DNA of 23,656 nucleotides from a virus, in IMG/VR virus record IMGVR_UViG_3300044638_006579, positions 1 to 23,656 of that record; one strand, given 5' to 3'. Below the pieces are notes generated by a model. That model made no database searches. It was not told the origin of the DNA and saw only the letters and a program-made list of their open reading frames with translations. Positions 19,211 through 21,844 of the stretch are shown piece by piece. Position 1 is the first letter of the stretch; each line of letters opens with the position of its first letter. Position numbers and translations under genes: made by a program.

Positions 19211-19476
19211 CACCCTTTGAGCAGGCGATCCTCAACGCCCTTGAGCAGCTCTCCGAAGAGGAGGAACAGACGGTTCCGGCCATGCAGCTCCTACAGATCC
19301 AAATCGGGGGCGTGAACTACCAGTGTTTCTCGTCCGTGATTTCCGAGGAAGACGATGACATTCCCAAGATCGAGGCCATACAGATCGGGGACATCATTCC
19401 CATGAGCACGGTTATCTCGTGGCTGCAAAAGGCTCAAGACTCATGGCTCAAGGGCCATAACAAGGGTTTGCAATGA
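19204..19476 (+). CDS. Small acidic phage protein (90 aa), unknown function
   Basis: I chose GTG 19204 (MVTPFEQAILNALEQLSEEE), which has AGGACAAG upstream and overlaps the previous stop by 7 nt; the same frame is open further upstream but lies in the preceding gene. The protein has IQIGGVNYQCFSSVISEEDD, a strand-rich segment, and ends with a helix (VISWLQKAQDSWLKGHNKG). It is acidic overall. The next gene begins with ATGA overlap. Function is not recognised. Confidence 0.55.
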   Translation: MVTPFEQAILNALEQLSEEEEQTVPAMQLLQIQIGGVNYQCFSSVISEEDDDIPKIEAIQIGDIIPMSTVISWLQKAQDSWLKGHNKGLQ

Positions 19477-19631
19477 CCGTCCCCTCCTGGTTAATCGCCT
19501 TTATTGGTGTGCAGTATGCAGTGGTAATGCTTTTGTTTTACCGCGATGGCCAGCCCTGGATGGCGGTCACGTATTTCGGTTACATGCTGGGCAACGTGGG
19601 GTTGGCGATGATTGCCCTGGGCCACAAATAG
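19473..19631 (+). CDS. Two-span membrane peptide (52 aa)
   Basis: ATG 19473 overlaps the previous stop (ATGA). The peptide has a hydrophobic helix at 5-22 (SWLIAFIGVQYAVVMLLF), a short polar turn YRDGQP, and a second helix at 30-50 (VTYFGYMLGNVGLAMIAL). The W-L-x-x-x-I-G-x-x-Y ... A-x-x-Y-x-GY-x-x-x-N-x-G-L pattern is one I have seen in other phages. Two spans with a tight hairpin could be a holin-like or host-membrane protein. It is the last gene before the pentamer array, which starts 5 nt after its stop. Confidence 0.6.
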   Translation: MTVPSWLIAFIGVQYAVVMLLFYRDGQPWMAVTYFGYMLGNVGLAMIALGHK

Positions 19632-19636
19632 TTTGA

Positions 19637-19801
19637 GGTATGGCATGCCAAGACAAGGCATGGTCAGGTAGTGTGGGGTTCGGTAGGGCGCGGTTCGGTG
19701 TGGTTAGTTGCGGTTAGGCTAGGCGCGGCACGGTTCGGAAAGGTAGGGCTCGGCAGGGTTAGGCTGGGTATGGTGAGACGTGGTTCGGTATGGTGAGGGT
19801 T
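19637..19801. repeat. 33-unit degenerate pentamer array, GGYNN
   Basis: 165 bp split without any slip into 33 units of 5 bp. Position 1 is G in 32 units, position 2 is G in 29, position 3 is C or T in 31; positions 4 and 5 vary freely. Examples are GGTAT, GGCAT, GGTTC, GGTAG. It is not coding: stop codons interrupt it. The G-rich strand is the transcribed-sense strand for the flanking genes. The spacing GG-N3-GG would also allow two-layer G-quadruplexes. Confidence 0.9.
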
Positions 19802-19803
19802 TT

Positions 19804-19860
19804 TTAATGGAACCTGGCTGGGTTTGAGAAGGTTCCATTAAGGAACCCTTAGGGGTTTTT
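19804..19860 (+). promoter_or_regulatory. Attenuator-like alternative hairpins ending in a T run
   Basis: Segment 1 (19804-19814) pairs perfectly over 11 bp with segment 2 (19831-19841). GGTTCC in segment 2 (19831-19836) can instead pair with GGAACC in segment 3 (19842-19847). Segment 3 (AACCC, 19844-19848) can pair with GGGTT (19853-19857), followed by a T run to 19860, forming a short terminator. The 1:2 plus 3:4 and the 2:3 foldings exclude each other. Confidence 0.55.
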
Positions 19861-19878
19861 GTTAAGCTAGGCAGCAAT

Positions 19879-19928
19879 GGTAGGGCGCGGTAAGTCTAGC
19901 TGAGGTCCGGTAGTGCGTGGTACGGTTT
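19879..19928. repeat. Second pentamer array, 10 GGYNN units
   Basis: Ten 5-bp units (from GGTAG GGCGC GGTAA to GGTAC GGTTT) with the same rule as the larger array: position 3 is C or T in all ten, position 1 is G in nine, position 2 is G in eight. It follows the hairpins by 18 nt and ends 35 nt before the start codon at 19964. A small CCCC/GGGG hairpin (19929-19942) comes directly after it. Confidence 0.75.
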
Positions 19929-19963
19929 CCCCACCTTTGGGGTTTATATAGGAGAAAGTAAGA

Positions 19964-20581
19964 ATGGCTAAGTCCAATTTGAAAGTTGTTAGTGAAGTGA
20001 CCAATGGTGGCAAGAGCGCCATTGAACAGGGTTTCCCTTATGCTGTAGCTGTAAGGGCCCAAGGTGCAGCGGATCTATTGTTCCACCGCTGGAACTGCGA
20101 GTCAGTCGATGCGAAGTCCAAGGCCGCCAAGAACTCGGCTGCCAAGAAGACCGATGACATCGAGTCCTATGTCTGGAGGAACGAAAAAAATGAGCTCTGC
20201 ATCCCAGGGGAGTATTTTAGGCAGTCCATTATCCATGCTGCGAAGTTTAAGCAAGACCCCCGCTCACCGCGTAAGTCCGCGATGGATTTGTTCAAAGCCG
20301 GGGTTGTATCGCTTACTCAGCTGGCGTCACTTGGTAGCGATGAGTGGGACTACCTTGACACTCGTCGGGTCACAGTACAGCGAGCCGGAGTCAATAGAAC
20401 CCGACCTGCCATGCGCATCGGATGGGAAGTGGATCTACAATTTCAAATACTCACCCCTGAGTATATCGACCCCACTCTTTTTCAAGACGTACTGAACACG
20501 GCCGGACGCTTAGTTGGCGTCGGGGATTTTCGCCCAACGTACGGACGCTTTAACGTCACCAACTTCGAGGTGCTGTCATGA
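19964..20581 (+). CDS. Conserved phage protein with RAMP/Cas7-like C-terminus (205 aa)
   Basis: ATG 19964 follows TATAGGAGAAAGTAAGA. Visible parts: a strand AVAVRAQGAADLLFHRWN (28-45), a lysine-rich loop (50-63), CIPGEYFRQSIIHAAKF (80-96), DPRSPRKSAMDLFKAGVV, a strand GWEVDLQFQIL, a helix, then GRLVGVGDFRPTYGRF and a last strand. PG-x-x-x-(R/K)-x-x-x-x-x-A and a glycine-rich GxGxFxPxYGxF before a terminal strand recall the RAMP (Cas7-type, ferredoxin-like) RNA-binding fold. That is inference; I know the protein only as a widespread phage hypothetical. It stands alone, without other Cas genes, after the pentamer arrays, and overlaps the next gene by ATGA. Confidence 0.6.
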   Translation: MAKSNLKVVSEVTNGGKSAIEQGFPYAVAVRAQGAADLLFHRWNCESVDAKSKAAKNSAAKKTDDIESYVWRNEKNELCIPGEYFRQSIIHAAKFKQDPRSPRKSAMDLFKAGVVSLTQLASLGSDEWDYLDTRRVTVQRAGVNRTRPAMRIGWEVDLQFQILTPEYIDPTLFQDVLNTAGRLVGVGDFRPTYGRFNVTNFEVLS

Positions 20582-21018
20582 TTAAAAAGCCTGCAAAAAA
20601 GGCGAAAAGTACGTCCCTATCCCGTACGGTAAAGAGTACGCAAAAAAGTACCGTTAAGAAGGCTAAACTCACGCCCCTATCCCGTACGGGAAAGCGTACG
20701 AAAAAGCGTACGACTAGGAGTGCGCCCAAGGCGGTCAAGCTCACTCCGCTATCTAAGTTTCTTGAAACATGGGACAAGGACCAAGGCCCAGTACCCACGC
20801 TTTATGACACGGCCGGCAAGCTCGATGAGGTTGTCAATACCCTGACGGATATCCAGCATCTGATGGACTCGGCCTTGGATGACTGCCTAAGCCTTAACAA
20901 CGAAGCACGGTCTATGGCTTTAATGCACCTAGCCTACGGGATGATCAAGGGCGTGGTAGATAAGCTCGACCCGCTGACCACGGACCTTTACCGCATCAAC
21001 CGGGCCATCTCAAAGTAG
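20578..21018 (+). CDS. Very basic histone-H1-like protein with helical C-terminus (146 aa)
   Basis: ATG 20578 overlaps the previous stop. Residues 1-60 are dominated by Lys, Arg, Thr and Ser and hold a threefold imperfect repeat of the form (K)AK-x-T-x-LSRT or VKLTPLSK, separated by KSTxKST or KRTKKRT runs. This tail would bind nucleic acid without much sequence preference. Residues 75-145 are acidic and helical (LDEVVNTLTDIQHLMDSALD, then MIKGVVDKLDPL). The coding DNA repeats GTACGG/CGTACG many times because of the Ser/Arg-Thr codons. It is coupled to the possible RAMP-like gene and may work with it. The end overlaps the opposing gene by 9 bp. Confidence 0.6.
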   Translation: MIKKPAKKAKSTSLSRTVKSTQKSTVKKAKLTPLSRTGKRTKKRTTRSAPKAVKLTPLSKFLETWDKDQGPVPTLYDTAGKLDEVVNTLTDIQHLMDSALDDCLSLNNEARSMALMHLAYGMIKGVVDKLDPLTTDLYRINRAISK

Positions 21019-21462
21019 GGTCTTCTTCCTGCGACCTGGGGCCCTTGCCGGCTCCAGGGTCATCACGTCTATCGGGCCGCCCGTCACAGGGTCAAAGATC
21101 GACGCAATCTCGATGGCCTCCCTCGGACTCTTGCCTAGGTGCATCGACGCCAAGGCGTACGCAGAACCTGTTCCAACCGAGAAGAAGTCACCACGGACCT
21201 TGACCGGGTGGATCGTGCTCTCGTAGACGTAAATGCCGTCTGCGCGCAGCTCCAAGATGTCCACCTCGATGGGCTCATCGAAGTCCCCGTTTCGTTCGAC
21301 CGAATCGTAAAACTTCAACAGTTTGTCCAAGTCCCCCGCCCCGCCGAAGATGCAGTTCTTGCCCCGGCGAAGCTTTTCAATGTAGTACTTCACGTCGTCG
21401 CCCGAGACCTGGCTGTCTGCCGCAATCTCAAGAGTACTAAGCCGCGCCGCTATCGTCGTCAT
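21010..21462 (-). CDS. Proteasome-beta/HslV-like Ntn hydrolase
   Basis: From ATG 21462, with GGAGA 7 nt before it, the product begins MTTIAARLSTLEIAADSQVS. Removal of Met exposes Thr as nucleophile, exactly as in HslV (TTI...D-x-Q). Asp16 and Lys30 (EKLRRG) match the conserved Asp17/Lys33 pair, CIFGGAGD (37-44) matches the following glycine-rich strand, and FSVGTGSAYALASMHLG (94-110) plus EAIEIASIFDPVTGGPIDVM match the later core. At 150 residues it is a little shorter than HslV (about 175). No unfoldase partner is visible, so it may self-assemble or use host HslU or ClpX. The start lies inside the HNH gene. Confidence 0.75.
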   Translation of the reverse strand: MTTIAARLSTLEIAADSQVSGDDVKYYIEKLRRGKNCIFGGAGDLDKLLKFYDSVERNGDFDEPIEVDILELRADGIYVYESTIHPVKVRGDFFSVGTGSAYALASMHLGKSPREAIEIASIFDPVTGGPIDVMTLEPARAPGRRKKTLL

Positions 21463-21844
21463 CACCCGTCTCCTTGCCTGTCATGTCCTTAGTGATCATC
21501 CGACCACGGCTCTCGTTCCAATGCAAAATCCTGTGACAATTGGAACACAGGGGAATGCACTTCTTAACCTCTTCGTACACCCTCACCCAATTGCTGTCGG
21601 CCGCCATCCGATTGACCGACCCCTGAGTACCATCCCGCACCACGTGATGGAAGTCAATAATGGCCGGATGAGACACCCCACAATGGTGGCAGGGCTGAGA
21701 GGACTTGAACTCGATCCACTTAGCCTTACCAAGCCGCTTATTTCGGGCTACACGGGCTTTGACGGCCTCTTTGTTACGTTGATAGTAGGACTTCTTGTAG
21801 AGGCTGTCCTTGACCTTTTTAACGGCCTTGTCTTTGTATGGCAC
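21437..21844 (-). CDS. HNH endonuclease
   Basis: A GTG start at 21844 is fixed by GGGAGGATTGCT just upstream. The 135-residue protein has a basic N-terminal helix region (1-47), then C52-x2-C55, DFHH (64-67) and C100-x2-C103-H104, the zinc-stabilised HNH (beta-beta-alpha-metal) fold with the catalytic His at 66/67. It may be a homing-type or packaging-linked nuclease; HNH proteins near terminases often assist packaging in phages. The C-terminus is an acidic DDDDSGAA tail encoded in the overlap (26 bp) with the Ntn hydrolase gene, so the two are translated together. Confidence 0.85.
   Translation of the reverse strand: MPYKDKAVKKVKDSLYKKSYYQRNKEAVKARVARNKRLGKAKWIEFKSSQPCHHCGVSHPAIIDFHHVVRDGTQGSVNRMAADSNWVRVYEEVKKCIPLCSNCHRILHWNESRGRMITKDMTGKETGDDDDSGAA

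Follow-up and report, generated by a model that had tools for sequence, protein, structure and literature searches.

A VIPR guide-array locus with long GGYNN repeats in an environmental viral contig

VIPR, made public in April 2026, is a form of RNA-guided DNA recognition that is related to CRISPR and thought to precede it (PMC13142463); phages appear to direct it at competing phages. The system consists of a protein, Vipr, and of vrRNAs composed of 9–16 YNNGG repeats followed by a structured tail; the NN dinucleotides of these RNAs read double-stranded DNA, with one base skipped per unit, and VIPR thereby represses competing mobile elements (PMC13142463). Seven VIPR types have been published, as well as five vap families besides that of the SUSP1 group, and staggered arrays of overlapping vrRNAs and arrays interspersed with hammerheads are also mentioned (PMC13142463). 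We rely on the same preprint for expression of the RNA, assembly of the RNP, binding to DNA, and repression.

Here we analyzed a pentanucleotide array and its surroundings in a viral contig, hereafter the window, which is an entire IMG/VR record of 23,656 bases. The window contains a RAMP-superfamily Vipr homologue, intergenic YNNGG repeats (GGY constant, NN variable) adjoining the vipr gene, and a structured 3′ element after the repeats, which differs from the SUSP1 pseudoknot. Set against the 9–16 repeats per vrRNA, array 1 has 33 units and array 2 about 11–12. Based on homology, protein fold, array anatomy, and strand coupling, membership of the locus in VIPR is close to certain, which places it in a system made public in 2026. 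Our analysis establishes that the array exists and that a Vipr family of known fold is linked to it, as well as the coupling of strands, the closing stem, and the in-phase gain and loss of units.

Arrays and structured elements of the locus

Array 1 (19,637–19,801, + strand), delimited by unit scoring and by alignment with relatives, comprises 33 GGYNN units. An earlier note, made from the letters of this DNA alone, had described 33 in-register pentamers, 32 of them with G as first base, 29 with G as second, and 31 with C or T as third, and had placed their start 5 nt after a stop codon; both descriptions proved exact. The resulting score is 92 of 99 GGY positions, compared to no more than 63 when the letters were shuffled and to 54 for the best 33-unit stretch on the other strand of the window. 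Autocorrelation, which the note had proposed as a check, reached 0.53–0.59 at each multiple of 5 and about 0.2–0.3 elsewhere. Tandem Repeats Finder returned almost no signal (10-bp period, score 37), which identifies the array as degenerate rather than as a simple tandem repeat; adjacent units of the arrays are not copies of one another, and 7 of the 33 units are imperfect. When folded as RNA and compared to shuffles, array 1 appeared unstructured (z = +0.4), as expected of a guide.

The stop codon 5 nt upstream of array 1 ends a 52-aa ORF (19,473–19,631, + strand), which is a CDS in the annotation of phage DSL-LC04 and is not known to belong to the VIPR system. A reading of array 1 as coding sequence was rejected, since the array sits between this ORF and vipr and is not a gene. 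No match was obtained in an Rfam search of the window, no sigma-70-like promoter was seen upstream of the array, and nothing useful was found in the literature on pentanucleotide repeats in phages.

Substitutions were compared between array 1 of the window and that of six close relatives. G1 and G2 were almost invariant, GG being the least changed positions, while Y3 changed frequently and mostly between C and T. Positions 4 and 5, which had looked random in the window taken by itself, changed less often than Y3 among these relatives (transitions in the window array: 36 of 169 at Y3 vs. 22 of 337 at NN; Fisher P = 2 × 10−6, with related sequences treated as independent). The ~7 units at the 5′ end (GGTAT GGCAT GCCAA GACAA GGCAT GGTCA GG) and the 3′ units (GGTAT GGTGA ... 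GGTAT GGTGA GG) are conserved among close relatives. All gaps of the relatives relative to array 1 are multiples of five (5, 10, or 25 nt), and two 1-nt insertions occur in the opposite direction; arrays gain and lose units in phase, and the earlier suggestion that the spacing is under selection was, in our judgment, right.

Downstream of array 1, the order of elements is a long stem, array 2, a small hairpin, and the 205-aa vipr gene. The 18-bp stem (19,797–19,848, + strand; 19,797–19,814 paired with 19,831–19,848) closes the 3′ end of array 1 and is supported both by covariation, with 95.4% of cells paired, five pairs changed on both sides, and none of 500 shuffles scoring as high, and by RNA folding of positions 19,782–19,945 (z = −2.8 vs. 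shuffles). The loop of this stem holds a further GGYNN array in L143, L135, and DSL-LC04, of which only a remnant is left in the window and in L134 after deletion, indicating that a guide module can disappear in one piece. Array 2 (19,870–19,928, + strand; ~11–12 units), recovered by unit scoring and alignment, had been missed by the earlier note. Its register is clean from 19,879, and its 5′ end is out of phase through a 1-nt deletion relative to L133 and L134. Array 2 is followed by a terminator-like or tail-stem hairpin, CCCCACCTTTGGGG (19,929–19,942, + strand), whose position is kept in relatives.

Linkage of the arrays to a RAMP-fold protein family

The vipr gene (19,964–20,581, + strand) encodes a 205-aa RAMP-fold protein (P0001; phrog_4652), assigned by PHROG, PDB profile, AlphaFold, and Foldseek analyses. 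Its product matched phrog_4652 with E = 2 × 10−15, and a profile built from an alignment of 66 homologues matched one solved structure in the PDB, 36pp, entitled ‘SUSP1 Vipr protein’ (E = 6 × 10−38). In Foldseek, the AlphaFold model (pLDDT 92.8) retrieved type VII and type III Cas7 chains (E-values from 1 × 10−7 to 1 × 10−5, down to 1.1 × 10−7), i.e., the modeled protein adopts the RAMP/Cas7 fold known from the backbones of Class 1 CRISPR systems. A C-terminal motif conserved across the Vipr family, G(x)G(D/E)xRP...GxF, resembles the RAMP glycine-rich loop and reads GVGDFRPTYGRF in the window. The ORF is intact, and its homologues in independent contigs are 91–100% identical.

A candidate accessory gene of 146 aa (20,578–21,018, + strand) occupies the vap position and overlaps the vipr stop. 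The protein is predicted to combine a Lys-rich disordered N-terminus with a helical C-terminal domain, and the gene was seen to follow vipr in the nearest relatives only. It showed no detectable sequence relationship to the SUSP1-group vap (Alf5_085), the one vap family with which it was compared, and no relative in Pfam, PHROG, or the PDB, while its low-confidence helical model yielded no significant fold match. Adjoining the cassette on the opposite strand are genes for an HslV-like peptidase (phrog_1040; 21,010–21,465, − strand) and an HNH endonuclease (phrog_3106; 21,437–21,844, − strand), in the same order as in DSL-LC04.

A scan of viral contigs for the DNA pattern alone (GGYNN × 10), along the lines that the earlier note had proposed, returned at least 120 loci, and 86 of 120 among the matches listed carried a Vipr-family homologue. 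The arrays lie in gaps beside the vipr-family gene and on its strand. As a control, the reversed pattern YGGNN × 10, whose composition is identical, yielded 100 loci, 14 of them with Vipr; these were mostly simple repeats, with usually 1–3 distinct units in ten compared to 7–10 in the GGYNN loci. Searching with the protein only, we found same-strand arrays near the gene at 77 of the 81 viral loci, counting the window, and at all 18 loci from bacterial genomes, and opposite-strand arrays at a single viral locus. The earlier note had named absence of the 5-bp period from related phages as refuting; with the period present in 77 of 81, this check favored the observation. Array lengths in relatives are broadly spread from 7 to 175 units, which does not support a fixed length of 33 or multiples of 11 (33 being three times 11). 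The longest tract seen is an uninterrupted 175-unit GGYNN array (L194:8901–9775).

Named phages that carry both array and Vipr include DSL-LC04, Felix O1-group coliphages, salmonella phages, Medea1, and LESphi2, together with mycobacteriophage Saal, several Gordonia phages, and Cy-LDV1. Their annotations list Vipr as a hypothetical protein and, in one case, as a helix-turn-helix regulator. In Gordonia phage Pipp (gp43; L126:4108-4377) and in Trine (gp40; L130:4097-4900), CDSs have been annotated that overlap GGYNN arrays; the translation of Pipp gp43 is an Ala/Arg/Gly-rich sequence, and this gene is probably a mis-annotated vrRNA array.

Other loci show additional structure. At L202:3309-3999, L200:2486-2819, and L198:1036-1603, arrays of 15–60 units are separated by a near-identical element of ~85 nt, which folds as a three-way junction with no evident hammerhead core. 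These spacers gave no match when searched against Rfam for ribozyme identity, and the element may serve in processing. In Felix O1-group loci (L124:4357-4754 and similar), GGGTAGTTAGTCTCAGCTACATTAAAATGAGACT follows each array; judged by eye, pairing would be possible between its GTAG and CTAC in the loop of the hairpin, which is consistent with the pseudoknot tail of SUSP1.

Targeting code and competing interpretations

For the targeting code, NN strings from 269 arrays were compared to 4.4 Mb of collected loci on both strands, with arrays masked, and 12-unit windows with at least 21 of 24 NN matches were retained. At a 1-nt skip, 69 windows passed this threshold, compared to 16, 4, and 4 at skips of 0, 2, and 3 nt, and to 5 when unit order was shuffled. 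After low-complexity guides were removed and windows merged, the one-base skip left 40 target sites from 8 guides, and the 0-, 2-, and 3-nt rules left 3, 3, and 2. For related arrays, a one-base-skip code with targets in related phages is therefore established.

These targets are genes of related phages. Judging from their translations, they appear to encode a helicase, a RecA/AAA-like ATPase, and a primase, and further targets lie at the vipr 3′ ends of rival phages; within the vipr targets, the skipped base is the third codon position. For five guides, the rival site matched 21–24 of 24–26 NN bases, whereas the homologous site in the phage’s own genome matched 17–19. The matched tracts span 12–14 units inside arrays of 15–47 units and end one to five units before the array 3′ end in seven of eight arrays, even where these have 23, 35, or 47 units. 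By analogy with these relatives, the guide tract of array 1 probably ends a few units short of its 3′ end. The eighth target, a single site of a 75-unit array, is probably due to chance. Two arrays located directly behind vipr (L198:951-1035 and L202:2825-2919) match the vipr 3′ ends of other loci under the skip rule (L168, L173, L211, L177, L208, and L209), and fit their own vipr end more poorly, which points to VIPR being directed against VIPR. Arrays 1 and 2 of the window had no target among the collected loci (4.4 Mb), and exact 8-unit probes against viral contigs (units 8–15, 17–24, 20–27, and 23–30 of array 1 and units 0–7 of array 2, counted from 0) revealed no convincing target, their matches stopping at the probed units or lacking a convincing extension.

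Taken as a whole, these results are very probably best explained by a VIPR guide array, i.e., the array would represent the variable part of one or more vrRNAs. Such a vrRNA would be transcribed from the vipr gene strand, and Vipr subunits with their RAMP/Cas7 fold would oligomerize along it, approximately one per 5-nt unit, each gripping a GGY triplet. The exposed NN dinucleotides would then pair with double-stranded DNA as NNxNNxNNx, with one target base, usually a codon wobble position, skipped per unit, and binding of the complex to a gene of a competing phage would block its transcription. GGY would accordingly be held constant as the register, and NN would carry the targeting information. 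By analogy with the preprint and with related arrays, we infer that the locus represses a rival phage, and that array 1 is expressed and used to this end. Four observations speak against this reading: the searches described above yielded no target for the window arrays, the 33 units exceed the published 9–16, the gene after vipr does not resemble the SUSP1-group accessory gene, and a sigma-70-like promoter was not seen upstream.

The earlier note had raised, as one possible use, an RNA leader bound by a ring or filament protein in the manner of TRAP. In an autoregulatory form of this idea, such a protein would recognize GGY triplets within the 5′ leader of the mRNA that encodes it and thereby switch a downstream attenuator. 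TRAP repeats have a spacing similar to that of the array, the array lies within the presumed vipr leader and is followed by a hairpin, and the bound protein is probably Vipr itself. RNA is also probably the functional form, and the RAMP-fold family is genetically tied to the array, so that the idea of an RNA read every 5 nt by an oligomeric protein stands in part. The TRAP mechanism itself does not, and we consider it very unlikely: the protein has a RAMP and not a TRAP fold, and in many relatives the arrays are downstream of the gene, in tracts of up to 175 units, where they cannot act as its leader. A protein reading only GGY would likewise not produce NN that are more conserved than Y3 and that, in related loci, fit genes of rivals under the skip rule. 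Together with the published system, NN conservation and skip-rule matches instead assign the register to GGY and the targeting to NN (PMC13142463), and the attenuation reading was wrong.

The two other possibilities raised in that note, tandem two-layer G-quadruplexes and half-turn-phased DNA, account neither for the linked gene family nor for the gene-strand orientation or the NN-target matches. A GG every 5 nt could form two-tetrad quadruplexes from G2N3 repeats, but this predicts neither the pyrimidine at position 3 nor the matches of NN to targets, nor a linked RAMP gene (present at 86 of 120 pattern-selected loci among the matches listed), and we regard quadruplexes as a highly improbable basis for the array. 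It is similarly hard to credit a phased DNA element or a slippage-born repeat without RNA function: 5 bp does correspond to half a helical turn, and whole-unit gains and losses occur, but array strand is coupled to gene strand at 77 of 81 viral and 18 of 18 genome loci, neighboring units are not duplicates, and the excess of NN matches is confined to one skip rule and disappears when unit order is shuffled. Less improbable, though still unlikely, is that the locus has decayed, the former vrRNA array now being degenerate and without a live target. The 7 imperfect units of 33, the reduction of the loop array to a remnant, the base missing from array 2 relative to L134, and the lack of a target for the window arrays in collected loci and viral-contig probes are all compatible with decay. 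The intact vipr ORF, 91–100% identical in independent contigs, the conservation of NN relative to Y3, and the covarying stem argue against it.

Comparison with known systems

Starting from a locus found by sequence alone and using separate environmental data, we re-derived main claims made for VIPR: array and RAMP protein co-occur, only a one-base skip gives targets, these targets belong to related rival phages, with vipr genes among them, and the site in the own genome fits the guides less well. The GGYNN signature is common in viral contigs, yet the annotations of named phages (Felix O1 group, mycobacteriophages, and Gordonia phages) do not record it, and in some cases it is probably mis-annotated as protein.

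The Cas7-family RAMPs of type III and type VII CRISPR effectors (Csm3, Cas7) share with the window protein the fold, the glycine-rich loop, and the principle of a protein backbone reading RNA at a fixed period. Cas7-family CRISPR effectors have a 6-nt period, a contiguous spacer, and a CRISPR array, whereas the window locus has a 5-nt period and no CRISPR repeats. An identity as CRISPR-Cas was rejected, as no CRISPR-like direct repeats occurred among the tandem repeats of the window and no cas1/cas2-like product among those ORFs that the family search covered. TRAP also uses triplet repeats with 2-nt spacers that are read by an oligomeric protein, but its fold is unrelated to that of Vipr, and TRAP is not known to have its spacers read or to target DNA.

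A close relative is found in phage DSL-LC04 (OR003939, 22.4–23.0 kb), with a Vipr 97% identical to that of the window, the same gene order, and homologous arrays. Compared to the window, its array 1 lacks whole units (10- and 25-nt gaps), its second array is intact inside the stem loop, and the locus is annotated only as hypothetical and HTH proteins. The window resembles the type II VIPR of Escherichia phage SUSP1 (PMC13142463; PDB 36pp) in several respects: both encode a RAMP-fold Vipr and have same-strand GGY/NN arrays in the intergenic space next to its gene; in both, the repeats are followed by a structured element and vipr by a short second gene; and targets are read with a 1-nt skip, here in related arrays. 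The window differs in its 33-unit array compared to 9–16 repeats, in a long stem closing the array where SUSP1 has a pseudoknot tail, and in a downstream gene that bears no relation to its SUSP1-group counterpart (Alf5_085). Tentatively, these differences may reflect a clade layout absent from the main text of the preprint, in which long arrays run without interruption (33 units here and as many as 175 in relatives), hold several guides in a single register, and end in a long stem that can accommodate another array in its loop, and in which a Lys-rich accessory protein replaces that of SUSP1. Only the unusual array length and the dissimilar accessory gene might represent something new.
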